Assembly (NCBI GenBank): GCA_030429345.1
Contig: JAUIFJ010000034.1
Location: 1 to 30,504 of the forward strand
Reading direction: 5' to 3'
Length of the DNA stretch: 30,504 nucleotides
From: a bacterium
GTDB lineage: Bacteria; CAIWAD01
In this document: positions 611 to 17,539 of the stretch, in pieces
How positions within the stretch are numbered: the stretch's first letter is position 1
How the letters are laid out: each line of letters opens with the position of its first letter
Made by a program: the position numbers and the translations under genes
The notes under the pieces: generated by a model
The model's input: only the letters and a program-made list of their open reading frames with translations
Told to the model about the DNA's origin: nothing
Database searches by the model: none

Positions 611-1521
611 GAGTAATGCAGAAATACGCAAAGATTGTAAAGCCCCTCGTTGAAATAGAGCCCCGCCCCCTCCCAGGCCAACAAGGCACGCCGCCCCCCG
701 AACCTGCCGAGCAACCCTATCAGCACTCCCTGCACTCCTTTTTCCCGGCGCCCGAGCGCCAGCGCCTCGTAGAGTTCCGGGTGCCGCTGCACCAGTCGCG
801 GAAGCACCTCGCGCCCGAAGAGTTCCAGGTTGGCGCAATGGGCCTGGAAACTGCGCTCCTGGCCGTGCCAGGCCAGGGCCTGGGGCCTGTAATACAAGGT
901 CCCGCCGGCCTGCGCCAGGCGAAGGCCCATGTCGATGTCCTCGCCGCCCCAGACCTTGAGCTGCTCGTCAAAGGGGCCCGCCGCCTCCAGCAGGTCGCGG
1001 TGCAGCATGGAATTGCAGGTGTAGAAATGCCGCGGCGGCAGCTCTTCGCCGGCCTCGCGGCGGGCGGGGCCGCGGCCCTGCAGATAGAGCTGATAGCGCG
1101 CCAGCGGCAGGTCGCGGCCCTTTTCGTCCTGCACCCGGTAGCGCATGGAGCCCACGTGCACATGGCGCTTGTTTCCCAGTCCCCGCGAGAGCTGGGCCAG
1201 CCAGTCCGGCCGCGGCTGCAGGTCGGCGTCCAGGTAGACGATCCACTCGCCCCGCGCCAGCTCGAAGGCCCGGTTGCGGGCCGCGCTGCGGCCGCGGTTC
1301 TGCGGCAGGGCTTCGTGGATCACGGACAGGCCGCCCAGCTCCCCCTGCTCGAGCAGCCGCGTGATCCTCTGCGGACTGCCGTCCGTGCTGCCGTCGTATA
1401 CGACGACGGCCTCCATCTCCCCCGCCTCACGCTGAAGCGCGAGGGCGCGCAGGCAGGCCTCCAGCTTTCCGCCGTCGTTGTAGCTCGGAACCAGGATGCT
1501 TTTCAGGCCCGCCCGGCTCAT
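568..1521 (-). CDS. Family 2 glycosyltransferase
   Basis: A 317-residue GT-A fold glycosyltransferase, probably transferring a sugar from a nucleotide donor in envelope polysaccharide or glycan assembly. It opens with the GT2 nucleotide-binding strand (ILVPSYNDGGKLEACLRAL). It has the NRGRSAARN segment, the metal-binding DXD (IVYLDADLQPRPDW) and the acceptor-side motif WGGEDIDMGLRLAQAGG (ED catalytic-base type). A C-terminal region rich in aromatic residues (EGLYNLCVFLHYSGGY) may sit at the membrane. The start was taken as ATG at 1521-1519 because it overlaps the upstream TGA as ATGA. An in-frame GTG 15 codons earlier lies inside the preceding gene and is less likely. It is the last gene of a three-gene unit with a GT4 and a deacetylase-like protein. 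Substrate unknown. Confidence 0.85.
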   Translation of the reverse strand: MSRAGLKSILVPSYNDGGKLEACLRALALQREAGEMEAVVVYDGSTDGSPQRITRLLEQGELGGLSVIHEALPQNRGRSAARNRAFELARGEWIVYLDADLQPRPDWLAQLSRGLGNKRHVHVGSMRYRVQDEKGRDLPLARYQLYLQGRGPARREAGEELPPRHFYTCNSMLHRDLLEAAGPFDEQLKVWGGEDIDMGLRLAQAGGTLYYRPQALAWHGQERSFQAHCANLELFGREVLPRLVQRHPELYEALALGRREKGVQGVLIGLLGRFGGRRALLAWEGAGLYFNEGLYNLCVFLHYSGGYVAGKRSMPKA

Positions 1522-2657
1522 GCGAAGGCCTCCAGCAGGGTTTGTTCGGCTTTCTCCCAGCACCACTTCCGGCGGGCTGCCGCCAGGGCATCACGCAAAA
1601 CCGGATCCTCCAGCCGCCCACCCAGGCGGTCGAGGGCCCGGCCCAGGGAATCGGCGCTGCCGCAGTCGGCCAGTTCGCCCAGGCCCTCACCCTGGATCAC
1701 ATCTTCCAGTTCGGGCAGTCCGCTGGCCAGCAGGGGCAGGTCGGCCTGGATGTACTCGAAGAGCTTGTTCGGCATCAGGTAGCGGTAGGAGCGTCCCAGG
1801 TCGGGGACGGGAATCACGCCGGCATCGGCTCCGCGGCTCAGGGCAGGAAGCTCCCCGGACGGAACCTTGCCCGGCAGGTGCAGCCGCGCGCCGTGCGACA
1901 GGCCGGCGGCGTGTTCCACCATCGCGGCGTGGCCCGGGCCGTCGCCCAGGGCGAGCAGATGCCATTCCGGCCGCGAGGCCAGGCAATGAAAAAGCGGACC
2001 GAAGTCGTAGCCGGGCCAGAAGCCCCCCTGGTAGAGCAGGATCCTGTCCGCGCCCCGCAGGCCCGGGAAGCGCTCGCAGAGCTCCTGCCGCGCGCGACAC
2101 CGGGCGTCCGGCTCCAATAGGGAAGACGGCGTGAGACGCGGCGTATTGGGCAGGACCGAGGGAAGGGGGCACTCGTAGTCTTCCGCCAGGGCCCGGGCAA
2201 TGCGCGGCCCGACGGCGAAACTGCGCTGGGCCCGACGCATGCCGTAGCCCTCGGCGAAGCGCCAGAACTCGCGCACGGCGGCGCGCCGGCGAATGGTCGG
2301 CAGCTCGCAGTAGTACTCGCGGCTGTCGTAGACCAGGCGGTAGCCCTGGGAGCCCTGCCGCAGCGCGGCGGGCAATAGCGCCGGCGGATCCACCGCCAGG
2401 ACGGCCTCCGGCCGCTCGCCGGCGATCAGTCCGTATACCTGCCTCATGAAGCGCAGGAAATAGCTCTTGCGCCGCCCCTGCCGCGGATTGGGCAGCGCCA
2501 CACACTCCCGGCCGCGCCAGAACCCCGAGGGCGGGTGCAGGCCGTTGTCGACCCGTGTGACACGCAGTTGGTGGCCGGCGGCCTCCAGGCTTTCCGCCAT
2601 GCGCTCGAGGCGCGTTTCGTGGGACAGTTCGGAAAGCAGCAGGGCAAGGATCCTCAT
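1518..2657 (-). CDS. Group 1 (GT4-type) glycosyltransferase
   Basis: A 379-residue GT-B fold protein. The N-terminal half (MRILALLLSELSHETR) is the acceptor domain. The C-terminal half has the donor-domain strand RILLYQGGFW, the ALGDGP nucleotide-binding turn, and the EX7E-like segment MPNKLFEYIQADLPLLAS followed by GLPELEDVI. These are features of retaining GT4 enzymes using nucleotide-sugar donors. No signal peptide; expected at the cytoplasmic face of the membrane. The ATG at 2657 overlaps the upstream stop (2654-2656) as ATGA, and its own stop overlaps the next gene the same way, so the three genes are translationally coupled. Family call confident, sugar specificity unknown. Confidence 0.85.
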   Translation of the reverse strand: MRILALLLSELSHETRLERMAESLEAAGHQLRVTRVDNGLHPPSGFWRGRECVALPNPRQGRRKSYFLRFMRQVYGLIAGERPEAVLAVDPPALLPAALRQGSQGYRLVYDSREYYCELPTIRRRAAVREFWRFAEGYGMRRAQRSFAVGPRIARALAEDYECPLPSVLPNTPRLTPSSLLEPDARCRARQELCERFPGLRGADRILLYQGGFWPGYDFGPLFHCLASRPEWHLLALGDGPGHAAMVEHAAGLSHGARLHLPGKVPSGELPALSRGADAGVIPVPDLGRSYRYLMPNKLFEYIQADLPLLASGLPELEDVIQGEGLGELADCGSADSLGRALDRLGGRLEDPVLRDALAAARRKWCWEKAEQTLLEAFA

Positions 2658-4174
2658 GGCAGTTCCCCGCGACGATAAGCCTCCCGGCGGCGCCAGCGGG
2701 CGGCGATTCCGCCTGCCGTGTCAACGTGCGGATCCTTCGCCAGGGCCTCCTCGAGCAGCCCTTCGTAGAGCCCTCGCAGGCCCGGAAAATCGGCCTCGCA
2801 GAGCACGTGCGGATGCCAGTTGGCAGTCAGCAGTCCGCCGCTGCGCGCCAGGATGTCGACCAGCGAACGGATCTGCTCCGCCGCCTCCCTTTCCTGCAGG
2901 GGGCCGTCGAAGTAGAACTGGCTGTCCATCAGCACCAGCGGCAGCTCGAGAATCGGCAGAGCCTCCTGCTCCGCGGGGTCCCAGGGAAAGAAGGGGAGGC
3001 TGGTGCCGGCGCGGAATCCGGGGCGATCGTTCCAGCCCAGGCTGCTGTCCGTCCCGAAGCCGCAGACCAGCTGGTCGACCCAGCTGCGGGAAGGGTCGAA
3101 GCGCAGGTAGTGCTGGCGTGTGACATCGCTCTCGATGCCGGCGCAGCGGTCGAGCATCACCTTCTGGTCCTGCAGCTTCTCGCGATCGGCAAAGCTGTAC
3201 CAGCCGCCATGCAGGGCCAACTCGAAGCCGGCCTCGCGCACGCGGGACAGCAGGGCGCGCACCGCCGCCTTGTAGAGATGGTAGCGATAGGTCTTGTGGT
3301 CATGGCTTTCCGCCAGGAAGAAGAAGGTCGACACCAGGCCGCGCCGCTTCTCCAGGTCTATCATCTCCTCGACAAGGAACCAGGGGTCCTCGCCTTCGGC
3401 CAGTTTCCGGTAGAGTTCGCGCCATTGCCTGGCCAGCAGGCGGAAACGGCCGCGAAAGACATAGAGGGGGCTTTCCAGCAGCAGGCGCAGCGCGCTGCGG
3501 AAGCGCCACTTGAAGAGCATGTCTACATCATGCCCCAGGCAGAGCGCCCAGCGCTTCCCTTCCGGCCAGCGCGCCAGGGGACCGCTGCGGCCATCGTCGG
3601 GTTCTGGAAGGTCGAGCAGCCGGGCCAGCACCTGGGCCAGCCGGTCGCCCCAGGGGTGATCCACCAGTTCGGCGCTGCTGGCTTCCGAAGCAGTGGAAAG
3701 CCCTTCGACGAAGGCGCGCTTGTCCCCGCTGCCGCGCTCCTCTTCGCGCGACAGCTGGCGGAAGAGCGGCCCCAGCGGATCGAAGCCCAGGCGCACCCGC
3801 ACCTGGGTGCCATGCTGGCTCCAGGAGATGGGGGAGCTGCCGTCGCGGTAGGTCCAGGGCAGGCCCTCGACGGCCTCGAAGCGCTCGCAGTGCCCGAAGA
3901 CGGGAATGCCGCCCGGTGTGACACGGTCCTCCAGCAGGCGCGCGTCCGCCTGGTCCAGCTGGCAGGGCAGCCGCAGGATCAGGCGTGCCCGCTCCTGTTC
4001 CTGCCCTTCCTCCCCCACCACCAGCAGGCGCTCGCTTTCGCCGGGCTGGTCGGGCAGAAGAAAGCGCAGCTGGATGCCCATCCAGGCCGCCAGGGAGTCC
4101 AGGGTCCAGCCCAGCCGCGCGTGCAGATGACGCGGACAGGCCAGGCGGACATCGATGGTCGGAACCAGGCTCAC
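2654..4174 (-). CDS. Polysaccharide deacetylase-like protein (DUF7033-type N terminus)
   Basis: A 506-residue protein with a GTG start. GGAGGG lies four to five bases upstream, which decides the start. The N-terminal ~200 residues resemble the poorly described domain that precedes polysaccharide-deacetylase-like domains in surface-glycan clusters. The C-terminal ~300 residues carry the NodB-type opening motif as LGHDVDMLFKW, then FFFLAESHDHKTYRYH, LALHGGWYSF and a final TANWHPH. These would supply the metal and catalytic residues for N-deacetylation of a glycan. The order of motifs matches family CE4 loosely, so the substrate and even the activity are inference. It heads the unit with the two glycosyltransferases (ATGA overlap) and lies 112 bp after the alpha/beta hydrolase gene, with no terminator seen between them. 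Confidence 0.75.
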   Translation of the reverse strand: MSLVPTIDVRLACPRHLHARLGWTLDSLAAWMGIQLRFLLPDQPGESERLLVVGEEGQEQERARLILRLPCQLDQADARLLEDRVTPGGIPVFGHCERFEAVEGLPWTYRDGSSPISWSQHGTQVRVRLGFDPLGPLFRQLSREEERGSGDKRAFVEGLSTASEASSAELVDHPWGDRLAQVLARLLDLPEPDDGRSGPLARWPEGKRWALCLGHDVDMLFKWRFRSALRLLLESPLYVFRGRFRLLARQWRELYRKLAEGEDPWFLVEEMIDLEKRRGLVSTFFFLAESHDHKTYRYHLYKAAVRALLSRVREAGFELALHGGWYSFADREKLQDQKVMLDRCAGIESDVTRQHYLRFDPSRSWVDQLVCGFGTDSSLGWNDRPGFRAGTSLPFFPWDPAEQEALPILELPLVLMDSQFYFDGPLQEREAAEQIRSLVDILARSGGLLTANWHPHVLCEADFPGLRGLYEGLLEEALAKDPHVDTAGGIAARWRRREAYRRGELP

Positions 4175-4286
4175 CTTGCCCTCCGGCAGGTCAAGAACAA
4201 TCCCTTCGCCACCCGGCCGCCTCCGCCGCAGAAAGGGGAAGCGCAGATGAGATCGAAAACGGCTTCAGCGGCGATCCTGGATGCTC

Positions 4287-5027
4287 TCATTGGGGAAGGG
4301 ACTCCAGGAACTCCCTCGTATACGCCGAAAAAGCCTTCGGGGATTCCATTGGCCCCAGGTGGCCGGACTGCCCCGGGAGCAGGCGCCAGCGGGCCTGCGG
4401 CAGGCGATGGGCCAGTTCTTTCATCTCGTGCGGGGGACTGATCCGGTCCGCGGCCGCGGCGAGCACCAGGCTCGGCATGTCCAGGGCGCCGAGGGCCTCG
4501 CAGGTGCCCCTTCTCTGCAACAGGCAGGCCTGCTGCTGTTCCCAGAGCCCGGCTCCCAGGCGGCGGAACATGGCCGCCAGGCGCTGGCACAGCCCCTTGT
4601 CCTCCAGGCTGTCCGGCCCCAGGAGCGCCGCCCGGAACTCCGGCCAAAGCTCTTCGAAGCGCCCCTGGCGCAGGGCGCGGATCGCCGTTTCGCGCTTTTC
4701 GCGCCCGGCCGCGTCGTCGGGGCGGCACCGGGTGTGCGCCAGGATCAGGCCGCGCAGCATGCCCGGAAAGTCGAACGCGAAACGCTGGGCCAGGGAACCG
4801 CCCATGGAGACTCCGCCCAGAGTGCAGCGTGTGATACGGCGAGCGGCCAGCTCCTCGTGCAAAGCGCGGGCTTCCTGCCCCAGGTCGGCCCCGTCGACGA
4901 GCACGCAGAGCACACGGTGATCCACGCGCAGTTCTTCCCGCTGGGCGGCGAAGAGCTCCTCGTCGCAGAGCATGGCGCAGGCCAGGATGAGGGCAGGTCC
5001 TCTGCCTTCGTCGGACAGGATCTTCAA
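4287..5027 (-). CDS. Alpha/beta hydrolase
   Basis: A 246-residue single-domain alpha/beta hydrolase. The nucleophile elbow is GGVSMGG with Ser74. The likely acid is Asp194 (AAAADRISPP) and the base His223 (PGQSGHLGPMESP), giving a complete triad. The length is typical of the MhpC/esterase-like group. The substrate cannot be told from sequence. The start is TTG at 5027-5025 (MKILSDEGRG), with AAGGGAG a few bases upstream. It begins 58 bp beyond the hairpin terminator that ends the EF-G-like gene, so it needs its own promoter or read-through. The polysaccharide operon follows 112 bp downstream on the same strand. Confidence 0.8.
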   Translation of the reverse strand: MKILSDEGRGPALILACAMLCDEELFAAQREELRVDHRVLCVLVDGADLGQEARALHEELAARRITRCTLGGVSMGGSLAQRFAFDFPGMLRGLILAHTRCRPDDAAGREKRETAIRALRQGRFEELWPEFRAALLGPDSLEDKGLCQRLAAMFRRLGAGLWEQQQACLLQRRGTCEALGALDMPSLVLAAAADRISPPHEMKELAHRLPQARWRLLPGQSGHLGPMESPKAFSAYTREFLESLPQ

Positions 5028-5086
5028 GGACTCCCTTCCGCTTTCTTTGGGCGACCCGCGGTCGTCCTCCCCATTGCCCGGAATCG

Positions 5087-5120
5087 AAAACGGGCGCGGA
5101 AGAAGTGCTTCCGCGCCCGT
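5087..5120 (-). terminator. Rho-independent terminator after the EF-G-like gene
   Basis: A perfect 13-bp stem (ACGGGCGCGGAAG at 5090-5102 with its complement at 5108-5120) has a 5-base loop. Read on the minus strand it is followed by a short T run (5087-5090). It lies about 50 bp after the stop at 5172. Confidence 0.9.
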
Positions 5121-5171
5121 GTGACACCCGGTACAGGGACGGAGTGCCGGCCCGGGGCGCAGGCCGACGAC

Positions 5172-7244
5172 CTAGGCGTGTTCGCGGCTCGCTTCGTATT
5201 CCTCGATCACCTTCTGCTGCACCATGGCGGGGCATTTCTCGTAGTGCGAGAAATGGCGCTTGTGAGACGCGCGCCCCTGGGTCATGCTGCGCAGGGTGGT
5301 GCTGTACTGGTAGAGTTCCGCCAGCGGCACCTCGGCCTGGATCAGCTGGTACTTGCCGGAGGCCTCCATGCCGAGGATCTTGCCGCGGCGCGTGTTCAGG
5401 TCGCCCATCACGTCGCCCATGAAATCTTCCGGCACCTTGACCTCGACCTTCCAGATGGGCTCGAGCAGGATCGGATTGCATTCCTTGAAGCCCTGCTTGA
5501 AGGCTTCGCGTCCGGCGATCTGGAAGGCGATGTCCTTGGAGTCCACGCTGTGCATCTTGCCGTCGTAGATCTCCACCGCCACATCGACCACCTGGCAACC
5601 GGAAATGATGCCTTCCTTGAGCACGGCGGAAATGCCCTTCTCCGTGGCCTGGATGAAGGGCCCGGAGACATTGCCGCCGACCACCGAGCTGCTGAACTCG
5701 AAGCCCGCGCCCCGCTCCTGGGGCTTGATGCGGATCCAGACCTCGGCGAACTGTCCCGCGCCGCCGGTCTGCTTCTTGTGGCGATACTTGACTTCCGTGT
5801 TGCCGGTGATCGTCTCGCGGTAGGGCACGCGGGGCTTGGTCAGCACCACGTCGACGCCGTAGCGGTCATGCAGCTTCTGCAGCAGGACCTTGAACTGCTG
5901 TTCGCCCATGCCGGCCATGATCACCTGGTGCAGCTCCCCGTCCTGGTGGATCGAGAAACTGGGGTCCTCGTGATGGATCACGGTCAGGCCGGAGATCATC
6001 TTCTCGTCGTCGTCGCTGCTCGCCGGCTCGATGGCCGTGCGGATCACGGGATCCGGGAAATTGATCCTGCCGATGGTCGCCACTCCGCCCTTGGCGCAGA
6101 GGCTGTCGTTGGTATGCGTGTGCTTCAGCTTGACCGTGCAGGCCATGTCGCCGGCGTGCAATTCGCCGATCTCGTCACGGTGCCTGCCCCAGGTGCTGAA
6201 AATGGTGCCGATCTTCTCGTGATCGCCCTGGCTGGCGTTGATCAGATCCGCGCCGGGCGCCAGCTTGCCCGAGTAGAGCCGGAAAAAGCTCAGCTCGCCC
6301 ACATGCTGCTCGTTGACGGTCTTGAAGACCAGGGCTCGCGCCGGAGCGCTGTCGTCGCAGGGAATCTCGACGTCCTTGCCGTCGGCCTCCCCGTGCTGCG
6401 CCGGCATCTGCGTCGGCGCGGGATAGTCCTCGACGAGGATCTCGAGAATGCGTGATACGCCGGCCAGGTTCTTGCCGCTGCAGCAGAAGACGGGGCGGAT
6501 CTTGCCGTTGCGGATGCCCGCGTCGAGGCCTCTGTGGAAGTCCTCCTCGCTCAGTTCGCCATCTTCGAGGTACTTCTCCATCAGCGCGTCGTCGCTTTCG
6601 GCGACGGCCTCGTGCATGCCCTCGACCAGCTCGTCCAGGTGCGCATGGTCGCCCTCGATCTCCTCTTCCGTGTAGTTCCCCTCGGCGTCGAAGACCAGCA
6701 TCTTGCGGTCGAGCACGTCGACGATCTTGTGGAAGCCGCTGCCGCCCTCGTCGACGGGATACTGCAGGGGCACGCTGCGCCGGTACTGGTCGCGCAGGAT
6801 CGCCAGCTCCTCTTCGAACTTGGTGTGCTCCCTGTCCAGCATGTTGAAGACGAACATGCAGGGAATCACGCGCTCGTTGATGATTTCCATTACCGCTTCG
6901 GTCATCACCTCGGGGCCGTTGATCGGATTGATCATCACCATGGCGATGTCCGCCACGCGCAGGCCGGCCCGGGCATCCCCGATGAAGTCCGCGAATCCCG
7001 GCGTGTCCAGGAAATTGAGCTTGTGCTCCTTGAACTCCGTCTGCACCAGCGTACAGCTGAGCGATTTCTGGATATCCTGCTCCACCGGGCTGAAGTCACT
7101 GACCGTGCTCTTCTCCTCGATGGTGCCCATGCGGCCGATCTTCCCCGTACATTTCAATACGGCCTCGGCGAAGATCGTCTTGCCGGTCGCCTCGTGCCCC
7201 ACCAGGGCCACGTTGCGGATCCGCTCCGAGGGATAGACTTTCAA
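5172..7244 (-). CDS. Elongation factor G-like GTPase (EF-G paralogue)
   Basis: A 690-residue translational-GTPase paralogue with full EF-G domain order. G1 is GHEATGKT (16-23), G3 is DTPGF (80-84), followed by a domain II with HVGELSFFRLYSGKL, a domain IV opening YRETITGNTEVKYRHKKQTG, and a domain V ending QGRASHKRHFSHYEKCP. Its N terminus KVYPSERIRNVALVGH is that of the EF-G-like/FusA2 group rather than housekeeping EF-G. The G4 motif, NKxD in the family, reads NMLD (134-137; codons near 6840), so the lysine that stacks on guanine is missing. The start is TTG at 7244: GGAGGT sits four bases upstream and the codon overlaps the preceding stop as TTGA. The ATG twelve bases earlier lacks a good site. 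The job of this paralogue group is not settled; translation or ribosome-linked stress is the usual guess. Confidence 0.88.
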   Translation of the reverse strand: MKVYPSERIRNVALVGHEATGKTIFAEAVLKCTGKIGRMGTIEEKSTVSDFSPVEQDIQKSLSCTLVQTEFKEHKLNFLDTPGFADFIGDARAGLRVADIAMVMINPINGPEVMTEAVMEIINERVIPCMFVFNMLDREHTKFEEELAILRDQYRRSVPLQYPVDEGGSGFHKIVDVLDRKMLVFDAEGNYTEEEIEGDHAHLDELVEGMHEAVAESDDALMEKYLEDGELSEEDFHRGLDAGIRNGKIRPVFCCSGKNLAGVSRILEILVEDYPAPTQMPAQHGEADGKDVEIPCDDSAPARALVFKTVNEQHVGELSFFRLYSGKLAPGADLINASQGDHEKIGTIFSTWGRHRDEIGELHAGDMACTVKLKHTHTNDSLCAKGGVATIGRINFPDPVIRTAIEPASSDDDEKMISGLTVIHHEDPSFSIHQDGELHQVIMAGMGEQQFKVLLQKLHDRYGVDVVLTKPRVPYRETITGNTEVKYRHKKQTGGAGQFAEVWIRIKPQERGAGFEFSSSVVGGNVSGPFIQATEKGISAVLKEGIISGCQVVDVAVEIYDGKMHSVDSKDIAFQIAGREAFKQGFKECNPILLEPIWKVEVKVPEDFMGDVMGDLNTRRGKILGMEASGKYQLIQAEVPLAELYQYSTTLRSMTQGRASHKRHFSHYEKCPAMVQQKVIEEYEASREHA

Positions 7245-8848
7245 TGGGACCTCCATTGTTCCGTGTTGCGGTATTTGTACTTGAGTTCCTTGCGCAGTTT
7301 GCGTTCCTCGTCGTCATAGGGAATGTGATCCACGAAGGTGACGATGCTCGGACGCAGGTAGGGCGGGAAGAGCTCCTCGCAGGCCTGTAGCAGGCTTTCG
7401 GCGGTCCAGCGCTCCTGGCTGCCGTCGGACTGGTGGACGAAGACCTGGATCCGGTCCGGCTGGCGGTAGCGCGGCGCGTTGACCGCCGCCACGTCACGAA
7501 TGCCGGGCAGGGCGAGCAGGGGCTGCTCCACTTCCAGCGGACTGACCTTGAAGCCGAAGACCCAGATCACATCGAAGACCTCGTCGGCCAGGTGCAGGAA
7601 GCCTTCCGTGTCCAGCATGGCCATTTGCCCGCTCGGCTGCCAGTCTTCGACCGGGGCCTCGGGATTCTCTTCCTGCTCCCCGGTCCAGCCTTCGCAGACG
7701 CGCGGACCCTGCAGGTGGATCTCGCCCCATTTCCCCGCCGGGCGCTCGTGTTGGCCATCATCGCGAATGCTGAGCTCGAACCCGGGCAAGGGCTTGCCCA
7801 CCGTATCCTCGCGGATCTGCAGCCAGGGCAGGTTCATCGCAATGAAAGAGGCGGCCACATGGGGAGCGTAGCCTTCCAGCAGGTGTCCGCCGACGCTCTT
7901 CTGCCACTCCTCGCGGAAGTCGACACGCACGCCATCCATCAGCAGCAGGCTGTGCATGACGCTGCCCTGCAGCGGCCGGCCTTCGGCGGCAGAACGCTGC
8001 AGGCTGCGGTGCAGGTACCAGAAATACTTGCGGGTATTGATCATCAGGCGCGGCGACCATTCGTCGATGGCCCGGCGCACGTCCTCGTCGTCGTCGCTGC
8101 GGTCCAGCAGGACCAGGGTGCCGCCGCTGAAGAGGGCCGGCAGCAGCTGCGAGGCCAGGCTGATGCTGTGGCTGAGGCTCATCTGGGCCAGCACCACCGA
8201 ATGGCGCCGCAGGGTGAAGAGCTTGACCATGGCCTGGGCGCTCTCGGCCAGGGCGGCAAGGCTGAAGAGCGCTCCGCGCCAGGCGTCCTCGCGGTCGACG
8301 CGGTAGTAGCAGACGCGCGCCCTGGCGGCGTCCTCCGCCGGCGGCATGCGAGGATCCTTCTCCTCTTCCAGCAATTCGCGCAGCAGGGGATGGTCTCCCA
8401 GGGAGGCCTGGTGCTCCTCGTCCGCGCTGCGCACGGCAATCGCCTCGCGCCGCCCTTCCCCGATCAGCTCGCGCACCTTGTCGCCGACGCTGTTGTGATA
8501 CACCACCAGCGTCGGGTCCAGGTCGGCGGCGATGTCGGCCAGGGAGCTTTCGGAACTGCGGATCTCGCAGGGAGCGAAGGTGCAGCCGAGCTTGAGCAGG
8601 GCCAGCTGGAGCCAGATCATCTCCGGCGAGTTGGTGACCAGCAGCAGCACGCGGCTGCGGGAGCCGTGGCCGCGCTTCATCAGCGCGCCGGTCAGGCGCT
8701 CGACGCAGTCCAGCAGCTCGCCATAGGTCTGGCGGCGGGATCCGAAGACCAGGGCCAGGTCCTGCGGGCGGGAACGGCATTGTTCCTCGAAGGCGCTGAA
8801 AGTGTCGAAGAGCGCGGGTTCCTTGAGGAAGTCGAGGTCGAGGGTCAT
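7241..8848 (-). CDS. ANL-superfamily (acyl-CoA synthetase-like) protein, probably degenerate
   Basis: A 535-residue protein whose length and overall order match adenylate-forming enzymes: an N-terminal opening (FEEQCRSRPQDLALVFGSRRQTYGEL), the hinge region, and a C-terminal subdomain (VFGFKVSPLEVEQPLLALPGIRDVAAV, then ERKLRKELKYKYR). The catalytic motifs are eroded. Where the P-loop YTSGTTGxPKG should be, residues 179-196 read CYYRVDREDAWRGALFSL. The EGYGxTE motif reads EGYAPHVAA (325-333). The ribose-binding TGD is SGQ near 406. Activity as a ligase is therefore doubtful. The ATG at 8848 was chosen because the domain begins at once; a GTG at 8872 is possible and neither has a strong ribosome site. 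Its stop is coupled to the EF-G-like TTG start. It diverges from the SARP-like regulator across 275 bp. Confidence 0.8.
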   Translation of the reverse strand: MTLDLDFLKEPALFDTFSAFEEQCRSRPQDLALVFGSRRQTYGELLDCVERLTGALMKRGHGSRSRVLLLVTNSPEMIWLQLALLKLGCTFAPCEIRSSESSLADIAADLDPTLVVYHNSVGDKVRELIGEGRREAIAVRSADEEHQASLGDHPLLRELLEEEKDPRMPPAEDAARARVCYYRVDREDAWRGALFSLAALAESAQAMVKLFTLRRHSVVLAQMSLSHSISLASQLLPALFSGGTLVLLDRSDDDEDVRRAIDEWSPRLMINTRKYFWYLHRSLQRSAAEGRPLQGSVMHSLLLMDGVRVDFREEWQKSVGGHLLEGYAPHVAASFIAMNLPWLQIREDTVGKPLPGFELSIRDDGQHERPAGKWGEIHLQGPRVCEGWTGEQEENPEAPVEDWQPSGQMAMLDTEGFLHLADEVFDVIWVFGFKVSPLEVEQPLLALPGIRDVAAVNAPRYRQPDRIQVFVHQSDGSQERWTAESLLQACEELFPPYLRPSIVTFVDHIPYDDEERKLRKELKYKYRNTEQWRSH

Positions 8849-9123
8849 GCGGCGTCCGGGACCAGAGGGCACAGGCCTGATCGCCTGCGTCCGGTTTCGT
8901 TGTTGGTGCTGAATTCGGAGGTCCGATGGCAGGGTCCGGGCCGGATTCAGGCAAGAGCGTGTAAGCTATTTCTTGGGTCGCACAGAAGCAATCGACCCGC
9001 GCTTCGCATCCGGATCCGTGATGCCCTTGTCGGCGCGGAATCTCCGGCCCGAAGCAGACAACTCTGGCGCATGCGGACAAAGAAAAGTACATCCAAGTCG
9101 TCAACCGGACACGCCGGATCCCT

Positions 9124-12100
9124 ATGCAATTTCAGAACATCCAGTCCTTGCCTCCCGGGCTTCCACGGCTGTTGCAGGCCGCGCTGGAAATCCAGGGCTC
9201 CTCGCCGGAAAACGGCACTCCCCGGGGTTTGCTGCTCAGCGCGCCCTCGCAGGCCTGCATTCGGCTCCTGCGGCAGGAACTGATCCGCAGACTGGAAGCC
9301 GGCGACCGCGTGGTGCTGGCCTGTCCCGGCCTGGCGCCGCTGCCCGTGGAACTGGCCGCGGCACTGACTGCCCGCCGCGATCTGGCCTCCCTGCTGCACC
9401 AGAGGGTCCGGGCGGACTCCGTGGCGCTGGGAGGCATCCTGCGCCGCCTCTGCAGGCTGCGGGCCGTCAGCCTGGTGCTCGAAGCCACCCCGAACGGCGC
9501 GCCAGAGGACGAAGGCCTGTTCTCGGCGCTGGAAGGCGAATCCTTTTCGCTGTATCTGCTTGAGGGGCCGCACACACCTATCACCAGCTCCTGGACCTTC
9601 CGGACCCGCAAGGAGCTGCGACTGGAGATCCCGACCGCGCAAGACCTTCAGAGCTGGCTGGAAGAGCGGGACCTGCAGAGCACTACGACTCCCGGAGAAC
9701 TGCGGCCCTTTCTCCCCGGGGAGCTGGAACGCCTGCAGGGCCTGCACGAAGAAGCCCTCGCCAGCAAAGGTTCCCTGCTGCAGTTGCTGCGCGAGGATGC
9801 CCGCCGGACATTCGAGCGACTGCGTCCCCCGGAGAAGCTTCGCGCGTCCTTCCGGGAACTGGCCTGGCTTCATGGTCCCTGGTCGCTGAGGCTCGCTGCG
9901 GAGCTGGGCCTGGAAGAAGCCTGCGACCTGGGGCTGGAAACGGGGCTCCTTCGGCAGGAACGCGAATCGCGCGCCTTGTTCGGAAAGGACGAGGGGCCGA
10001 GGGCGGACTTCGCCCGCCCCGTCTTCGCCTCCCTGATGGCCGAAGGGGCCGGCGACGCCAGCGGCTTCCTGCGCCGCCTGCTGGGACGGCAGGACCTGGT
10101 GCTGTATCACCCTGCACCCCTGCTGCAGTTCGCGTCCCTGCTGGCCGGGCGGCAGAGCATGTCCGGGAAGGATTTCCTGGAGGATCTGGCCCTGCTGGCC
10201 GAGCACCAGCACGAGCTGGATTTCCGCCTTGCGCTCCGCCTGCAGGAAGGACTGGCTTCCCGCGTGGAACGGGCCCTGGCGGAGAATCCCGACGAAGACT
10301 GGCTGGAAGCGCGCGTCGTCCTGCTCAATACGAAATTGTACACGAACAAGCGGAGAATGCACCAGCCGGAGCTGCTTGCCGAGGCGCGGCGAATGGAAGA
10401 GCTGGCCCGCGAGCTTCCGCGCGGGGAACGCAATGTGCTGCGCGCCCTGCTTCACCAGGGGCGCCACTACGGGGCGAGCGGCCGGCCCTTTCCGGAAGAC
10501 CTGCGCCGACGCGCCCTGCAGTGGGTGCGCCTGCATCCGGCGCTGGAACGAAGCCAGACCTGGCGGATGCTGATCGGCGACCAGGCCCTGCTGGGCTGGA
10601 CGCGCCGTGATACAGCCATGAGCGACTGGGCCGCCGGGGCCATGGAGTCCTGCCTGGAGCAGTCCGGGCTCTCCGAAGAGGATGCCCTGGACCTGCGCCG
10701 CCGCGTCGAGCCCTTTCTGCTGTACCGCTACTCCAGCGAGGAAGAGGTCTCGCACTGCCTGCGGCAGGTGCCGCGGATCGACGCCCTCTACGGGGACAAG
10801 GACCTGACCTGGCTCACCATTCGCCAGATCCTGTGGATCCAGCTGGGCGAGTTCGGCAGCGCGCTGGAGCACGCCGGGGACCTGGGGCGCCGGCTGCGCG
10901 AAGCCGGGCTCTGGCGGAATCTCGTGACACACGACAGCCACACTCTCCTGCTGCACTTCCTGGCGACGGACCTGGGGCCGCATCTCGACGACTGGGTGGA
11001 AGGCCTGCTGCTGCAGGAGCCGCACAACCGGACCGACCTGACCTGGCCCGCCCTGCGCTTTCACCATGCCCTTTCCCGCCTGCTCGCCGGGGACGACGAG
11101 CACTGCCTGCGCCTGCTGCGGGAAGTCGAGAGCGAGACGCCACGCTATCCTTTGGCCCGCCTCTGCCTCCTGCTGCTGGAAGGGCGGGCCGGCACCCTGC
11201 TGCAGGAAAAAGACCAAAGGGCCTGGTATCACCTGCGTCACTGGCACGGCATCTGGGAGCTCGTCGCCGAACAGGCCCGGGGCGCTTCCTGCGACAACGA
11301 GGCTCTTGCCCGGCTGGCCCGTTCCCCCCTGCTGGACCTTTTCGATCTCTTTCGCCTGCCGCTGCTGCTCTGCCTCTGCCGCCGCCGGAACACGAAGCCG
11401 CCGGCCTGCCTGCGCGAGGCGCTGCAGCGCCAGCTGCTGTGGTACGAGCAGCGAGGCGCCGCCCAGGGCATGCAGATGCTGCTGGATGCCTGGGGCGGAC
11501 TGCTGGAGGCCGGCGCGCTGAAGCAGTGGCGGGAAAGGACCCTGCTGCTGCGGGAGCCTATTGAAAGCGCTGCCGGGAACGTGATCCAGATCCAGATGCT
11601 GGACAGGATTCGCCTGCAGATGCCCGACGGCAGCGAACGCAGTCCGCGCGGCAGCCGCCTGCGTCGCCTGCTGGGCCTGCTGGTTGCCGCGCGCCTGCTG
11701 CGCCAGCCCATGAGCCGGGAGGAGTTCACCCTGCTGCTCGCCGGCGAGGAGCCGCGGGAACGGATGCACAATATCCAGTCGATCAGCCTGCACCGGCTGC
11801 GCGAGCTCCTGGGTCCCCGCGCGCTGGAGTCGGTGGACGATCTGCCGCGCCTTCATCCGGAACTCGTCCGTTGTGATCTGGACGAGGCATGGCAGGCCCT
11901 GCGCGAGGCCGAGCGGCAGGAACACGAGCCCTCGCTGGTCGGCGCGGTCCGGGCGGCGCGCCGGGCCCTGGAGGAGCTGGCCGGCAAGGAGCTCTTTCCC
12001 GGCCTCTACCACCGCTTCTTCGAGGCCTTGCGCGACGATGCCGCCGCCCGCCTGCGCGGAATCACCCTGCGCCTGGGCCATCGTCTGCTGCTGGAGAAGG

Positions 12101-12270
12101 ATGCCGAACGCGCCGCCGAACTGGGCAGCCTGCTCTTCGAACACACTCCGGACGACCCGGATCTGGCGGAGTTCCTGGCCGAGGCCTGGACGGCGGCCGG
12201 CCAGCCCCTGGCGGCCGAGCGCGCCCGCATCCGGCACCAGCTGGCGCTGGAACAGTCACCGAAAGAGTGA
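9124..12270 (+). CDS. Large SARP/BTAD-like transcriptional regulator with degenerate ATPase-like N terminus
   Basis: A 1048-residue plus-strand protein. From about residue 819 it reads like the winged-helix domain of SARP/AfsR regulators (DRIRLQMPDGSERSPRGSRL, LVAARLLRQPMSREEFTLLL, then a recognition-helix-like HNIQSISLHRLRELLG). This is followed by an all-helical BTAD-like bundle (SLVGAVRAARRALEEL, GKELFPGLYHRFFEAL, ending near 1040). The middle is helical, with TPR-like pairs. The N terminus has the outline of the NTPase domain of MalT/LuxR-type regulators, but the expected Walker A position (LLLSAPSQACIRLLRQE) has no GxxGxGKT. No signal peptide or membrane segment. ATG 9124 lacks a clear ribosome site; TTG or GTG alternatives downstream cannot be excluded. 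Divergent to the ANL/EF-G-like pair, which it may control (inference). Confidence 0.7.
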   Translation: MQFQNIQSLPPGLPRLLQAALEIQGSSPENGTPRGLLLSAPSQACIRLLRQELIRRLEAGDRVVLACPGLAPLPVELAAALTARRDLASLLHQRVRADSVALGGILRRLCRLRAVSLVLEATPNGAPEDEGLFSALEGESFSLYLLEGPHTPITSSWTFRTRKELRLEIPTAQDLQSWLEERDLQSTTTPGELRPFLPGELERLQGLHEEALASKGSLLQLLREDARRTFERLRPPEKLRASFRELAWLHGPWSLRLAAELGLEEACDLGLETGLLRQERESRALFGKDEGPRADFARPVFASLMAEGAGDASGFLRRLLGRQDLVLYHPAPLLQFASLLAGRQSMSGKDFLEDLALLAEHQHELDFRLALRLQEGLASRVERALAENPDEDWLEARVVLLNTKLYTNKRRMHQPELLAEARRMEELARELPRGERNVLRALLHQGRHYGASGRPFPEDLRRRALQWVRLHPALERSQTWRMLIGDQALLGWTRRDTAMSDWAAGAMESCLEQSGLSEEDALDLRRRVEPFLLYRYSSEEEVSHCLRQVPRIDALYGDKDLTWLTIRQILWIQLGEFGSALEHAGDLGRRLREAGLWRNLVTHDSHTLLLHFLATDLGPHLDDWVEGLLLQEPHNRTDLTWPALRFHHALSRLLAGDDEHCLRLLREVESETPRYPLARLCLLLLEGRAGTLLQEKDQRAWYHLRHWHGIWELVAEQARGASCDNEALARLARSPLLDLFDLFRLPLLLCLCRRRNTKPPACLREALQRQLLWYEQRGAAQGMQMLLDAWGGLLEAGALKQWRERTLLLREPIESAAGNVIQIQMLDRIRLQMPDGSERSPRGSRLRRLLGLLVAARLLRQPMSREEFTLLLAGEEPRERMHNIQSISLHRLRELLGPRALESVDDLPRLHPELVRCDLDEAWQALREAERQEHEPSLVGAVRAARRALEELAGKELFPGLYHRFFEALRDDAAARLRGITLRLGHRLLLEKDAERAAELGSLLFEHTPDDPDLAEFLAEAWTAAGQPLAAERARIRHQLALEQSPKE

Positions 12271-12713: not shown

Positions 12714-13325
12714 CTAATGCGCCACAACCTTGATCAGCCAGAAGCCCAGAAGCAGGAGCACGGTGAAGCCCACGGCCAGCAGGTTGAACCAGCGGTCGAT
12801 GAAGCGCGTGATCCCCGCCCCATAGCGATGCAGCAGCGCCGCCACCAGGAAGAAGCGTCCCGCGCGTCCCACCAGGCTGGCCAGGACGAACATCGGGAAG
12901 GGCACGTGGAACACGCCGGCGCTGATCGTGATCACTTTGTAGGGAATCGGCGTGAAGCCCGCGGTGAACACGATCCAGAAATTGTACTGCTCGTAGAGGC
13001 CGCGCACGGTCTCGAACTTGTGCTCGCTGAATCCGGGCACGTGATCGAAGAAGAACTGCGCCAGGGCGCTGGCCTCTCCCCCCGGCGCGTGCCACAGCCA
13101 GTAGCCGATGCCGTAGCCGACGATGCCCCCGATCAGGGAACCCAGGGTGCAGATGAGGGCGAAGCGATAGCTCTTCGTCAGCGCGCCGACGCACAGGGCG
13201 ATCAGGAGCACATCCGGCGGAATGGGAAAGAAACTGCTTTCGGCAAAGGCCAGCGCGAAGAGCGCCCAGGCGCCGTAGCGCGTCTCGGCCAGGGAAAGCA
13301 CCCAGTCGTAGAGGCGTCGTATCAT
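12714..13325 (-). CDS. DedA/YqaA family (VTT domain) membrane protein
   Basis: A 203-residue integral membrane protein of the DedA/VTT family, implicated in membrane lipid or undecaprenyl-phosphate flipping and envelope homeostasis. It shows the re-entrant-loop motif after the first helix (FALAFAESSFFPIPPDVLLIAL), the glycine-rich GSLIGGIVGYGIGYWL helix, and the second loop GFTPIPYKVITISAGVF followed by the conserved arginines (GRAGRFFLVAAL). A C-terminal helix (LAVGFTVLLLLGFWLI) ends it. ATG 13325 overlaps the pcm stop as ATGA, with GGAAG seven bases upstream. Part of the GT2-pcm-dedA-ferredoxin unit. Confidence 0.88.
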   Translation of the reverse strand: MIRRLYDWVLSLAETRYGAWALFALAFAESSFFPIPPDVLLIALCVGALTKSYRFALICTLGSLIGGIVGYGIGYWLWHAPGGEASALAQFFFDHVPGFSEHKFETVRGLYEQYNFWIVFTAGFTPIPYKVITISAGVFHVPFPMFVLASLVGRAGRFFLVAALLHRYGAGITRFIDRWFNLLAVGFTVLLLLGFWLIKVVAH

Positions 13326-13969
13326 GCGGGCTTCCATCCTTCCCGGCCCACAAGGGGCACGAAGGCGCAGCCGCTGTCGCGGTTCTCGACCAGCCGGCCA
13401 TCCCGTTTGTGGATCACAACCAGTTCCTGGCGCGCGCGGTCCCCGACGGGGATCACCAGGATGCCGCCTTCCCCGAGCTGCCGCGCGAGGGCCTGGGGCA
13501 GTTCCGGCGCTCCGGCCGTGACCAGGATGCGGTCGAAGGGCGCGTGATCGCTCCAGCCGATGGTCCCGTCGGCCGTGCGACAAAGAATGTTGTCCAGCCC
13601 CAGGTCGCCGAAACGCTTCTTGGCCAGGCTGGTCAGGGCGCTGTGCCGCTCGACCGTATACACGCGTCCGCAGAGGGCGGCGAGCACGGCCGCCTGGTAG
13701 CCGCTGCCGGTGCCGATCTCGAGCACGCGCTCCTTCCCCCCGAGGCAGAGCAGCTCGGTCATGCGGGCGACGATCCAGGGCTGGCTGATCGTCTGGTCCT
13801 GGCCGATCGGCAGGGCGCTGTCCTCGTAGGCCCGTGTTCTCAGCGGGCCTTCGACGAAGAGGTGCCGCGGCACGCTCCCCATGGCCTGCAGGACCCGTGG
13901 ATCACGAATGCCGCGCGCCGACAGATGCTCCCGCACCATGCGCTCGCGGGCCGCGTCGAATGTGTTCAT
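13322..13969 (-). CDS. pcm: Protein-L-isoaspartate O-methyltransferase
   Basis: A 215-residue SAM-dependent methyltransferase that starts repair of isoaspartyl damage in aged proteins. It carries the family signature GQDQTISQPWIVARM (56-70), motif I VLEIGTGSGYQAAVL (83-97), the post-I acidic residue VYTVERHS, and motif II DRILVTAGAPELP. The length equals the bacterial enzyme. ATG 13969 is preceded by GGAGAC and overlaps the stop of the GT2 gene (ATGA), with the dedA gene overlapping its own stop. The open frame extends to 14218, but that part lies inside the upstream gene and is not protein-like. Cytoplasmic. Confidence 0.95.
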   Translation of the reverse strand: MNTFDAARERMVREHLSARGIRDPRVLQAMGSVPRHLFVEGPLRTRAYEDSALPIGQDQTISQPWIVARMTELLCLGGKERVLEIGTGSGYQAAVLAALCGRVYTVERHSALTSLAKKRFGDLGLDNILCRTADGTIGWSDHAPFDRILVTAGAPELPQALARQLGEGGILVIPVGDRARQELVVIHKRDGRLVENRDSGCAFVPLVGREGWKPA

Positions 13970-14703
13970 GCGTCTCCAGATCCTTGCCGCCCGTAGGACG
14001 GCGCCAGGCTTTCGCAGAGCAGCGATGCGAAGCGCAGGCTGTCCTTCAGCCGATGAATGCTGCTCTTCTGCGGTCCGTAGAGGCAGCTGATCGGCGTGTG
14101 TGCCACGCGCGCCCCCTGCAGGAGCGCCTTCAACAGCAGCTCGCTCTCCATGTCGAAATGGCGGCGCTGCAGGTCCAGGCTTCGCAGCAGGCTGGCCCGG
14201 TAGAGGCGGAAGCCGCACTGGCTGTCCGCCAACCGCCGTCCGCTGCGCCAGGCCAGCAGCGCCGTGGAGAGGCTGTTGCTCAGCCGCCGGTCCCAGGGCA
14301 TCTGCTCCCTCGCACTGCTGCGGTCGCCCAGGACCAGGTCCGCTCCCGGCGCCGCCGCCAGGAACTCCGGCAGGAAGCGCGCCTCGTGCTGGCCGTCCGC
14401 GTCCAGGCTCAGGACCCAGGGGCGCTTGCGGCGCAGCCAGATGTTGAATCCGCGACGCAGGGCGGCGCCTTTGCCCTGGCGTAGGAAATGCCCATAGACC
14501 TCGATGCCCAGCGATCGGGCGCAGGCGGCGCTGCCGTCGACGCTGCCGTCATCGACGACCAACAGGGCCTCGGGCGGCAGGAGTTCGAGCAGCCCTTCCA
14601 GGCAGGCCCTCAGGCCCTGCTCTTCGTTGTATACCGGAAGCACGACCCCGATCTCTTCGGGGCGCGGCCGGGCCTCGGGGGTCTTGTCTGTGGCTGCGCT
14701 CAT
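13966..14703 (-). CDS. Family 2 glycosyltransferase (polyprenyl-phosphate sugar transferase type)
   Basis: A 245-residue GT2 of the DPM1/DPG-synthase type, which transfers a sugar to a lipid phosphate. Motifs in order: VVLPVYNEEQGLRACLEGLL, LLVVDDGSVDGS, RQGKGAALRRGF, the DXD WVLSLDADGQH, and a Q-C-G-F-R segment (ADSQCGFRLYRASLL) followed by FDMESELLLKAL. No C-terminal membrane helices, unlike some relatives. The first 16 residues are a charged, proline-rich extension. ATG 14703 has no clear Shine-Dalgarno. First gene of the pcm-dedA-ferredoxin unit; it follows the REP-like spacer after miaA. Confidence 0.85.
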   Translation of the reverse strand: MSAATDKTPEARPRPEEIGVVLPVYNEEQGLRACLEGLLELLPPEALLVVDDGSVDGSAACARSLGIEVYGHFLRQGKGAALRRGFNIWLRRKRPWVLSLDADGQHEARFLPEFLAAAPGADLVLGDRSSAREQMPWDRRLSNSLSTALLAWRSGRRLADSQCGFRLYRASLLRSLDLQRRHFDMESELLLKALLQGARVAHTPISCLYGPQKSSIHRLKDSLRFASLLCESLAPSYGRQGSGDA

Positions 14704-14899: not shown

Positions 14900-14929
14900 T
14901 CCGGGGGTGGTAGGATGTGGTGTAATCGT

Positions 14930-14957
14930 CGGGATCCTTGCTTTCGCGGGGATGACG
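14930..14957. repeat. REP-like palindrome, copy 3 (diverged)
   Basis: CGGGATCC-TTGCTTTC-GCGGGGATGACG resembles the widespread 'GTCATCCCCGCGAAAGCGGGGATCC' type, in the same orientation as copy 2, 20 bp before the miaA stop. Confidence 0.55.
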
Positions 14958-14977
14958 GGGTGGTGGTGTGCGGGTGT

Positions 14978-15928
14978 TCAGCCGTTTCGGTGCTGGTCGA
15001 AGCGGTGGATCACTTCCAGGGCCTCGGCGGCGAGGGAGGGTGTATCACGCTCCGCCTCGATCCGCAGCCAGTGGATCGGCAAGCCCTGGCGCTCCATGCG
15101 GCGGAACCACATCCGCTGGCGGCGGGCCAGGGTGCGAATGCCCTTTTCCAGGCCGGCCAGCATCTCCGATTCGGTGATCTCTTCCCGGATCCAGCGCGTG
15201 AGCCAGCGGTACTCCAGGCCCAGGCGCTCCAGGCGCTCAGCCGTGTGACCGGCGGCCAGCAGGCGCTCGCACTCCTCGCGCATGCCCTCCTCAAGGCGTT
15301 GCCGCAGGCGCAGGCCGATGCGCCGGCGCAGTTCCTCGCGAGGGCGATCCAGGCCGATCACAAGGCCCTTGAAGGCGGCGTGTCCGAGCCGGACGGGCGG
15401 CGGACCGGCCTGCGCCACTTCCAGGGCCCGCAGCATGCGTTCGCGGTCCTCCAGGTCCGTTTCATTGTGCAGCCCCGGAAGTTCCCGGACCACCCGCTGC
15501 CGCAATTCTTCGTGATCCAGCGCTTCCAGCTCGGCTCGCAGGGCGGGACGCGGCGGCGCGGGACGCAGGTCGTAGCCCGCCAGCAGGCAGTCCAGGTACA
15601 GGCCGCTGCCGCCGCAGAGCAGGGCGCGCCGCTTGCGGGCGGCGATCGCCTGCAGGGCCCTGTGCGCCTCCTGCTGGTAGTCGTAGAGGCTGCCTTCCCC
15701 GCCCAGGTCGAACAGGTCGATGCCGTGTACGGGGACCGGCGCTCCGCCGGATGTATACTCTTCGCGGTCCTTGCCGCTGCCCAGGTCCAGTTCGCGATAG
15801 GCCTGCCGGGAATCGACGGAGAGGATCTCCGCTTCCAGCTCGCGGGCCAGGGCCACGGCGAGAGCGGTCTTGCCCGAGGCCGTCGGTCCGAGCAGGCAGA
15901 GGGTCGATGGGGGAAGCGGAACCTGCAT
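14978..15928 (-). CDS. miaA: tRNA dimethylallyltransferase
   Basis: A 316-residue enzyme adding a dimethylallyl group to the N6 of A37 in tRNAs that read U-starting codons. It shows the P-loop GPTASGKT (14-21), the catalytic segment ILSVDSRQAYRELDLGSGK (normally DSxQVYRxMDIGTAK), GGSGLYLDCLLAGYD, and the tRNA-binding end LARRQRMWFRR. The length is normal. ATG 15928 overlaps the preceding stop by one base (TGATG) and has no Shine-Dalgarno, so translation probably depends on coupling to the diguanylate cyclase gene. Last gene of the long hut-led operon. Confidence 0.95.
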   Translation of the reverse strand: MQVPLPPSTLCLLGPTASGKTALAVALARELEAEILSVDSRQAYRELDLGSGKDREEYTSGGAPVPVHGIDLFDLGGEGSLYDYQQEAHRALQAIAARKRRALLCGGSGLYLDCLLAGYDLRPAPPRPALRAELEALDHEELRQRVVRELPGLHNETDLEDRERMLRALEVAQAGPPPVRLGHAAFKGLVIGLDRPREELRRRIGLRLRQRLEEGMREECERLLAAGHTAERLERLGLEYRWLTRWIREEITESEMLAGLEKGIRTLARRQRMWFRRMERQGLPIHWLRIEAERDTPSLAAEALEVIHRFDQHRNG

Positions 15929-17475
15929 CAGGAGGGGTCGCGTGTGACCTCGGGATCCTCGAAGACGGCCACCTGGTTGCGGCCGTTGTCCTTGGCGAAG
16001 TAGAGGGCCTTGTCGGCGCGCTTGATCAGGTCTTCCAGGCGCTGGATCTGCTCGTCCTGGGCGGCGCAGCCGATGCTGACCGTGAGACAGCCCCCGGGCT
16101 GCTTGTCGCCGTGTTCGAAGACCTCTTTGGCAATGCGCGTGCGGATCTTCTCCGCGACGCGCCAGCCCTGGACCAGGCTCGCGCCGCTGAGCAGGATGAT
16201 GAACTCCTCGCCGCCGTAGCGCGCCAGGAAGTCCACGCTGCGGATCGTGCCCTTGATCAGCTTGGCGACCCGGATCAGGACCTGGTCGCCGGCCAGGTGG
16301 CCGTTCTGGTCGTTGTAGTTCTTGAAGTGGTCCACGTCGAGCATCAGCAGGCACAAAGCGCCGGAGCCGCGCTTCTGGCGCTGCACTTCCAGGTCGTACT
16401 GCTCCTCGAAATAGCGCCGGTTGTGGATGTTGGTCAGCCCGTCCTTCGTCGCCAGTTCGAAGACGCGCGTGTGCTCCCGGGCATTGAGGATCGCGTTGGC
16501 CAGCAGGGCGGACAGCTCCTCCAGCCAGCCGAGGCGCTCCGTTCCCAGGTGCAGCTGGCTGCTGTAGAAGAGCTTGAGCAGGCCCACGCCCTCCGTCGCC
16601 GTGTGCAGCGGCAGCAGGATGGCCGTGCGCAGGCCGAGCACGCGGATCAGCCGCTGGTTGAGCACCAGCGGACTCTGCATCACATCGGACACGAAGACCG
16701 GCGCTCCGGCCTTGAAGAGCTCCATCTGCTGCTCCTGCTCGAGCAGGATGCGGATCTCGGCCTGGTCGCGGGCCTCGTCGGGACCGGTCCAGGACTTCTT
16801 GTGATGCAGCTCGCCATCCTCTTCCAGCAGCTCGATCTCCCCGAAGGCGAAGCCGAAGGTCTCACGCATGATCTCGCCGGTCAGCTCGAGCAGGCGATCG
16901 AAATCCAGTTCGCTGCTGATCGCCTTCTGCACGCGCAGAATGCCGGTGATTAGGCTCAGCGAGTGGCGGCTCTCGAGCAGATGGCTTTCCAGGTACTTGA
17001 TGAAGCGCTTGGAGAATTCGGCGGAAAGGGCTTCCGCCCGCGGTTCCTTCGGGATCTCGCGCTGCCGCTCGCCCAGCATCTCCAGCACCTGCTCGCACAG
17101 CGGCGCGCTGAAGCCCCAGGCCAGCTCGACGGGCAGGCGCTGCTGGAAGACCGACTGGCCGGGGTTCTCCACCAGCCGCGCGGCCATGGCGAAGCGTTCC
17201 TCCCCGCAGGCCAGGCTCAGAAAAAGCTGCCCGGCTTCCGGGGGCGAGAGGCGCCGCAGTTCCACCTCGCCCAGGTCGCCCCGGCCGGGAAAGGGCGGAA
17301 GCAGCGGGTAGGCGCTTTCGTCCCAGGCCAGGGCCAGGCGGCCGGAGAGCTTCCATTCGGCCAGCAGGTCGAAGAGAATCCGCAGCATGCGGCCGACCGT
17401 GTACTGGCTGAAGACCTCGTAGGAGGCTCGGCTGCCGGTTGCGCCGACCAGCTCGCGAAGGGGGTTGGATTGCAA
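15928..17475 (-). CDS. GAF-GGDEF diguanylate cyclase
   Basis: A 515-residue cytoplasmic protein that should make cyclic di-GMP from two GTP. Residues 1-180 form an uncharacterised N-terminal domain (cystatin-like or sensor). About 185-335 is a GAF-type sensor. The GGDEF domain follows (TKDGLTNIHNRRYF, LDVDHFKNYNDQNGHLAGD), with the active-site loop GGEEF at 421-425. The inhibitory I-site RxxD is present as RSVD at 412-415, five residues before it, so product feedback is expected. No membrane helices. The start is TTG at 17475 with GAGGT six bases upstream; no ATG or GTG is available in frame upstream. Downstream of hutI on the same strand, overlapping miaA. Confidence 0.9.
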   Translation of the reverse strand: MQSNPLRELVGATGSRASYEVFSQYTVGRMLRILFDLLAEWKLSGRLALAWDESAYPLLPPFPGRGDLGEVELRRLSPPEAGQLFLSLACGEERFAMAARLVENPGQSVFQQRLPVELAWGFSAPLCEQVLEMLGERQREIPKEPRAEALSAEFSKRFIKYLESHLLESRHSLSLITGILRVQKAISSELDFDRLLELTGEIMRETFGFAFGEIELLEEDGELHHKKSWTGPDEARDQAEIRILLEQEQQMELFKAGAPVFVSDVMQSPLVLNQRLIRVLGLRTAILLPLHTATEGVGLLKLFYSSQLHLGTERLGWLEELSALLANAILNAREHTRVFELATKDGLTNIHNRRYFEEQYDLEVQRQKRGSGALCLLMLDVDHFKNYNDQNGHLAGDQVLIRVAKLIKGTIRSVDFLARYGGEEFIILLSGASLVQGWRVAEKIRTRIAKEVFEHGDKQPGGCLTVSIGCAAQDEQIQRLEDLIKRADKALYFAKDNGRNQVAVFEDPEVTRDPS

Positions 17476-17539
17476 ATAGACCTCGAACTCAACAAGGAAC
17501 AGGAATGTGGCAATTTCCCGTGCGTTTCCGGCCCTGCAT

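Follow-up and report, generated by a model that had tools for sequence, protein, structure and literature searches.

A probable ANL-superfamily pseudoenzyme encoded in a translationally coupled pair with elongation factor EF-G2

In the 30,504-nucleotide contig JAUIFJ010000034.1 (assembly GCA_030429345.1, positions 1 to 30,504 of the forward strand), which comes from a bacterium of the GTDB lineage CAIWAD01 and whose full length is referred to here as the window, the gene for a protein of the ANL (AMP-binding) superfamily overlaps that of an additional elongation factor G, EF-G2. Our analysis places these two genes in a conserved ANL - EF-G2 - HIT operon, of which the window locus is a derived form, and the ANL protein of the window is, judging from its sequence, a maintained pseudoenzyme rather than a decaying gene. 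The ANL gene (7241-8848, minus strand, 535 amino acids; PF00501, E=1e-40, and PF13193) is the first of the pair, and is followed by the EF-G2 gene (5172-7244, minus strand, 690 amino acids), whose product falls in the EFG II subfamily (NF009381, 824.8 bits against a cutoff of 583). The TGA stop codon of ANL and the TTG start codon of EF-G2 share the TTGA at 7241-7244 (minus strand), with a GGAGG located five bases ahead of the start. This is a classical translational-coupling layout, and the four genomes of the family, which here comprises the window genome (G000) and its sister genus (G001-G003), all share both the overlap and the GGAGG-N5 geometry. An ATG at 7256 was also considered as the start of EF-G2, and was dropped for the TTG at 7244 on the basis of this shared geometry. 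No earlier description of a link between ANL and EF-G2 was found in the literature searched; searches for ANL-EF-G2-HIT linkage or for ANL pseudoenzymes returned nothing relevant, with subscription journals being thinly covered.

The window protein, whose best NCBIfam subfamily is NF004837, shares with the ANL acyl-coenzyme A (CoA) synthetases a predicted two-domain fold, and its closest solved structures are those of CoA ligases and amide bond synthetases. The AlphaFold (AF2) model obtained from 37 sequences reached a predicted local distance difference test score (pLDDT) of 87.9 and a predicted template modeling score (pTM) of 0.83, and superseded an earlier, poor model built from four sequences (pLDDT 61). 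When this model was used as a Foldseek query, it was predicted to resemble those same two enzyme classes over its full length, with template modeling (TM) scores of about 0.8. Unlike these synthetases, however, the window family lacks every one of the ATP-binding and adenylation motifs A3, A5, A7, A8, and A10. In all four family ANLs, in fact, A3, A5 (YGxTE), A7 (TGD), A8 (Arg), and A10 (GK) are replaced: the site of the ribose-binding Asp in A7 reads SGQ or SQQ, that of the A8 Arg is occupied by Glu, and that of the A10 lysine by Arg or Phe, the GK motif being absent and the local alignment of A10 being less certain because lysines lie nearby. At the position of the P-loop (A3, TSGTTGxPKG) the window carries YYRVDREDAWRGA and the sister genus YFRxDREDxWRGA, and the former P-loop region as a whole (8258-8314, minus strand) now reads VCYYRVDREDAWRGALFSL. 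The core of this replacement motif in the family is Y-x-R-x-D-R-E-D-x-W-R-G-A-x-F, and Y189, R191, D193, R194, E195, D196, W198, R199, G200, A201, and F203 (numbering counted from 8872) are invariant in spite of the fact that the family genera share only 41-44% of their ANL residues.

The association of ANL with EF-G2 reaches well beyond this family, and is therefore broader than the coupled pair that the initial annotation of the window had described, as 64 of the 65 loci sampled, from four deep lineages, have EF-G2 directly 3' of ANL. Among 77 EF-G2 neighborhoods drawn from many families, ANL was directly 5' of EF-G2 in seven genomes (the window family, G005, G049, and G057), and a HIT gene adjoined EF-G2 in ten. 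The phyla of G057 and G049 were then searched using their own linked ANLs as queries, and of the 60 best ANL loci, 59 were immediately followed by a co-oriented EF-G2 gene, while the remaining one ended with its contig; in a 20-locus sample from these two phyla, HIT was found 3' of EF-G2 in 14 of the 17 loci that could be assessed. A profile search of 386 genomes returned linked ANLs, among the best loci, only in the lineages of the window family, G005, G049, and G057. The HIT protein resembles an ATP adenylyltransferase/diadenosine tetraphosphate (Ap4A) phosphorylase (NF052622, with a score below NCBI's cutoff), and in most other lineages its gene comes third in the operon, as it does in the sister-genus genomes G001-G003, where it lies 3' of EF-G2. 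In the window genome, in contrast, the HIT gene is unlinked, and stands apart on contig C71 (C71:48149-48664). The genes found 5' of ANL vary among the other lineages. In G002, a 226-amino acid protein without Pfam match is encoded directly 5' of ANL on the same strand (L038:5048-5728, minus strand), a position taken elsewhere by the regulator discussed below or by unrelated genes, and in G358 an apparent second EF-G2 frame lies just 5' of the ANL-EF-G2-HIT operon (L227:2-1093 and 2968-6580).

A 108-row tree of ANL proteins places the 65 linked ANLs on one side of a branch and 43 unlinked ones on the other, with a Shimodaira-Hasegawa-like approximate likelihood ratio test (SH-aLRT) support of 99, even though the position of the window family among the linked ANLs has weak support. 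The EF-G2 tree is compatible with this result, as the EF-G2s of the window family form a group with those of G049 and G057 at an SH-aLRT of 98, with G061 inside. A single union of ANL and EF-G2, followed by repeated loss of adenylation, is the history that fits the sequences best. A 32-row ANL tree, in which the linked ANLs were separated, was set aside, because few of its rows were linked and two were duplicates carrying both labels; these ANLs are united in the 108-row tree. On the latter, loss of the A10 lysine takes about five to six changes, one of which is due to a truncated row. Of the EF-G2-linked ANLs only 21 of 64 retain this residue, compared to all 43 unlinked ones, 20 of which belong to the same phylum as G049; for the P-loop lysine, the numbers are 23 of 65 and 42 of 43. 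Among 25 further unlinked top matches, a single ANL (L269) lacked the A10 lysine. This protein (G199 C77:40-1536), with GT in place of GK, is encoded at the end of a contig and was scored as unlinked, but may be linked beyond the contig.

The EF-G2 of the window is a second copy, as a canonical EF-G1 with DTPGHVDF and NKMD is also encoded on a different contig of the genome (C9:72580-74628). Margus et al. (2011, PMC3150367) reported that the G1, G3, G4, and G5 motifs are conserved in EFG II, and that G2 is changed to xxxSx. Like these proteins and the Bacteroides EF-G2 known as FusA2 (PMC6989115; Han et al. 2023), the window EF-G2 is an extra EF-G paralogue with an intact GKT-type P-loop (G1, GHEATGKT), a G2 motif, IQKSL, that fits xxxSx in place of RGITI, and, in the alignment of the proteins sampled, a switch II without the catalytic His, which in the window (DTPGF) has become Phe. 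The G4 motif, which was reported as conserved, reads however NMLD in the window and, in the sister genus, NGLD; of the 37 EFG II proteins that we sampled from many families and lineages, 22 likewise lack the NKxD lysine. Its loss is therefore a trait of the EF-G2 family, and NKxD does not define EFG II in this wider sample. The GKT P-loop, on the other hand, was retained in all 37 proteins, and all of them lacked the switch-II His, with Tyr or Phe in its place and, rarely, Ser; the change from His to Phe is most likely the loss that matters in EF-G2. By sequence, the closest solved structure is 7uvp, which is labeled TetQ and carries a switch-II Ser and NQLD. Based on its length, alignment, and match to NCBIfam EFG2_Bacteroid, it is probably the Bacteroides EF-G2. 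In Bacteroides, the FusA2 message increases 238-fold under carbon limitation (PMC6989115), and EF-G2 enables GTP-independent translation according to the accounts given in PMC10294740 and PMC12775393, both of which cite Han et al. 2023. Based on its motifs, the window EF-G2 has likely lost GTP hydrolysis and, by analogy with Bacteroides, would most likely support slow, GTP-sparing translation during starvation. What distinguishes it from the described EFG II proteins is its coupling to an ANL gene, which appears in none of the papers found.

Taken together, we lean towards the view that the ANL protein acts as a non-catalytic partner, or as a ligand-sensing regulator, that is co-produced with a GTP-hydrolysis-deficient EF-G2 for translation at low energy. 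Under this model, carbon or energy stress would induce the operon, in the window perhaps through the divergently transcribed regulator, and coupled translation, for which the gene layout is in place, would yield ANL and EF-G2 together. GTP-bound EF-G2 would then promote translocation with little or no hydrolysis, as the behavior of its family suggests. The non-adenylating ANL might bind EF-G2, the ribosome, or a small ligand by means of its old pocket or surface, and in this way tune EF-G2, which is the weakest step of the model, and the substrate of the HIT protein, in the same pathway, might be an adenylated molecule or a dinucleotide. A more specific version, which we offer tentatively and hold to be rather unlikely, is that the EF-G2-linked ANLs are dedicated non-catalytic ligand sensors on the EF-G2/ribosome complex, which would tie GTP-sparing translocation to adenylates, acyl-CoA, or Ap4A, with HIT removing the signal.

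Several points weigh against a functional partnership of ANL and EF-G2. Operon linkage alone can reflect mere shared regulation, and the EFG II of Thermus does have GTPase activity, as discussed in PMC3150367, so that membership of EFG II is not enough to prove that hydrolysis was lost. About a third of the linked ANLs, in the G057 phylum, retain the A10 lysine and some of them the full P-loop. The ancestral protein was therefore probably catalytically active, and part of a metabolic role may survive. The Fisher p-values for lysine retention in linked and unlinked ANLs (4e-14 for A10 and 4e-12 for the P-loop) are descriptive and overstate independence, because the loci within a phylum are related. 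Lastly, the ratio of non-synonymous to synonymous substitution rates (dN/dS) between sister species, 0.30-0.36 for ANL and 0.16-0.22 for EF-G2, is a rough estimate, with high dS between the compared genomes and high guanine-cytosine content.

The main alternative is that the two genes are joined by shared regulation only, both being needed in starvation, and that ANL has a role of its own, such as acyl or CoA binding or an altered acyl transfer. The linked ANLs of the G057 phylum in which both the P-loop and the A10 lysine are intact are in agreement with this possibility, and make an acid-CoA ligase, then still active, the probable ancestor. So are the ANLs of the G049 phylum, where the A10 Lys is changed to Arg but the A5 Glu, A7 Asp, and A8 Arg are retained, as the A10 lysine is required for adenylation and is dispensable for the thioester half-reaction. 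A gene for a FadL/OmpP1-like outer-membrane protein, recognized by eye, is also found a few genes 3' of the operon in G001 and G003 (L037:12193-13461 and L039:3400-4668), and could be a hint of a link to fatty acids. Against it stands the window family, where none of the ATP motifs, and not just A10, is left and the four genomes nonetheless all show the exact coupling to EF-G2. Loss of the A10 lysine, moreover, happened about five times, and in the main sample it is confined to ANLs that are linked to EF-G2. As the whole explanation, we consider shared regulation rather unlikely.

We regard as very unlikely, instead, that ANL is a dying gene whose frame is kept open because its translation supports that of EF-G2. 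The ANL protein does evolve faster than EF-G2, with 42% identity between genera compared to 62%, but full-length frames are found in nearly all linked loci, dN/dS is well below 1, and the invariant replacement motif, the confidently predicted fold, and the long retention of the gene in several deep lineages all argue against neutral decay. Because fold and purifying selection persist and the replacement motif does not vary, the pseudoenzyme appears to be kept in use.

On the other side of ANL, the window encodes a large regulator-like protein (9124-12270, plus strand, 1048 amino acids), and the initial annotation had joined it to the pair in a single module with degraded nucleotide sites and a shared 275-bp spacer. 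The three genes and the divergent spacer (8849-9123) are indeed present, and the latter is exactly 275 bp because the ANL start is set at 8848, where it is fixed by the M-T-x-D-L-x-F-L start common to the four family members. The interval 7241-12270, said to hold all three genes, includes ANL and the regulator but not EF-G2. Homologues of the regulator were identified in the window genome itself, as a paralogue on contig C50 (29%; L097:608-3856, plus strand, in the interval L097:506-3859), and in G001 (L037:3265-6543, minus strand), the latter in the same divergent position as in the window. Both have an intact Walker A and an N-terminal AAA_16/STAND-type NTPase, with an AAA_16 match that is clear in the paralogue (E=3e-11) and reaches E=1e-4 in G001. 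The window copy is degenerate: its Walker A site reads SAPSQACIRLL compared to GEAGVGKT or GEEGQGKS in the homologues, Walker B is also lost (VLEATP compared to LLDDAQ and ALDQCD), and no significant Pfam or NCBIfam match was obtained for it. Because the own-genome paralogue and the G001 regulator keep Walker A, its loss is a private event of the window genome. Searches of the whole G002 and G003 genomes detected no homologue (in G003, the contig breaks off just 5' of ANL). The regulator was added locally and does not belong to the constant part of the module.

In terms of size, N-terminal NTPase of the homologues, and a DNA-binding-like C-terminal end, where a winged helix and helical repeats can be seen by eye in a conserved region, this protein resembles the STAND/AAA_16 regulators of the AfsR/SARP-like and MalT-like kinds; the window copy differs from them in lacking Walker A, Walker B, and a SARP/BTAD profile match. 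The label of SARP-like was abandoned, as it had neither profile nor PDB support: neither the window regulator nor the paralogue nor the G001 copy matched BTAD or Trans_reg_C of Pfam at E<=10, a divergent domain being possible.

That regulator, ANL, and EF-G jointly lost nucleotide handling as one signaling module is the least probable of the explanations, to the point of being refuted, because relatives have an intact Walker A, as in the G001 regulator with its same divergent layout, or no regulator at all, and because the NKxD loss is widespread in EFG II, even though the ANL P-loop, the NKxD lysine, and Walker A are all gone in the window. The P-loop of EF-G2, furthermore, is not degraded. 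What is conserved across genomes is the ANL-EF-G2 layout, and not the regulator upstream of it; similarly, the substitutions in ANL hold within the family and affect residues also lost in other linked lineages, and those in the regulator's Walker A do not. The suggestion of a ribosome-linked rather than metabolic system was therefore fair in its direction, although not for the reason of the triple loss.

The spacer contains two inverted repeats, both weak, and scanning of 8849-9123 did not reveal a match to a sigma-70-type promoter or a terminator. Elsewhere in the window are genes for two glycosyltransferases (568-2657, minus strand), a protein-isoaspartate methyltransferase (13322-14218, minus strand), an FGE-sulfatase-like protein with fn3 (22104-25199, plus strand), and an M14 zinc carboxypeptidase (25271-27412, minus strand), along with several long frames without Pfam match (14915-16003, 16963-19866, and 19975-21408).

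Paralogues of EF-G that belong to EFG II are widespread, and their role is largely obscure outside of Bacteroides; a conserved, translationally coupled partner gene provides a concrete handle on how EF-G2 acts and is controlled. The repeated loss of adenylation residues in the linked ANLs represents a natural experiment, which implies that the function for which these proteins are retained does not need adenylation. It also calls for caution in genome annotation, as EF-G2-linked ANL genes should not be annotated as long-chain-fatty-acid-CoA ligases. If these proteins were indeed ligand sensors, translation in starved bacteria would be subject to a further, hitherto unknown level of control.

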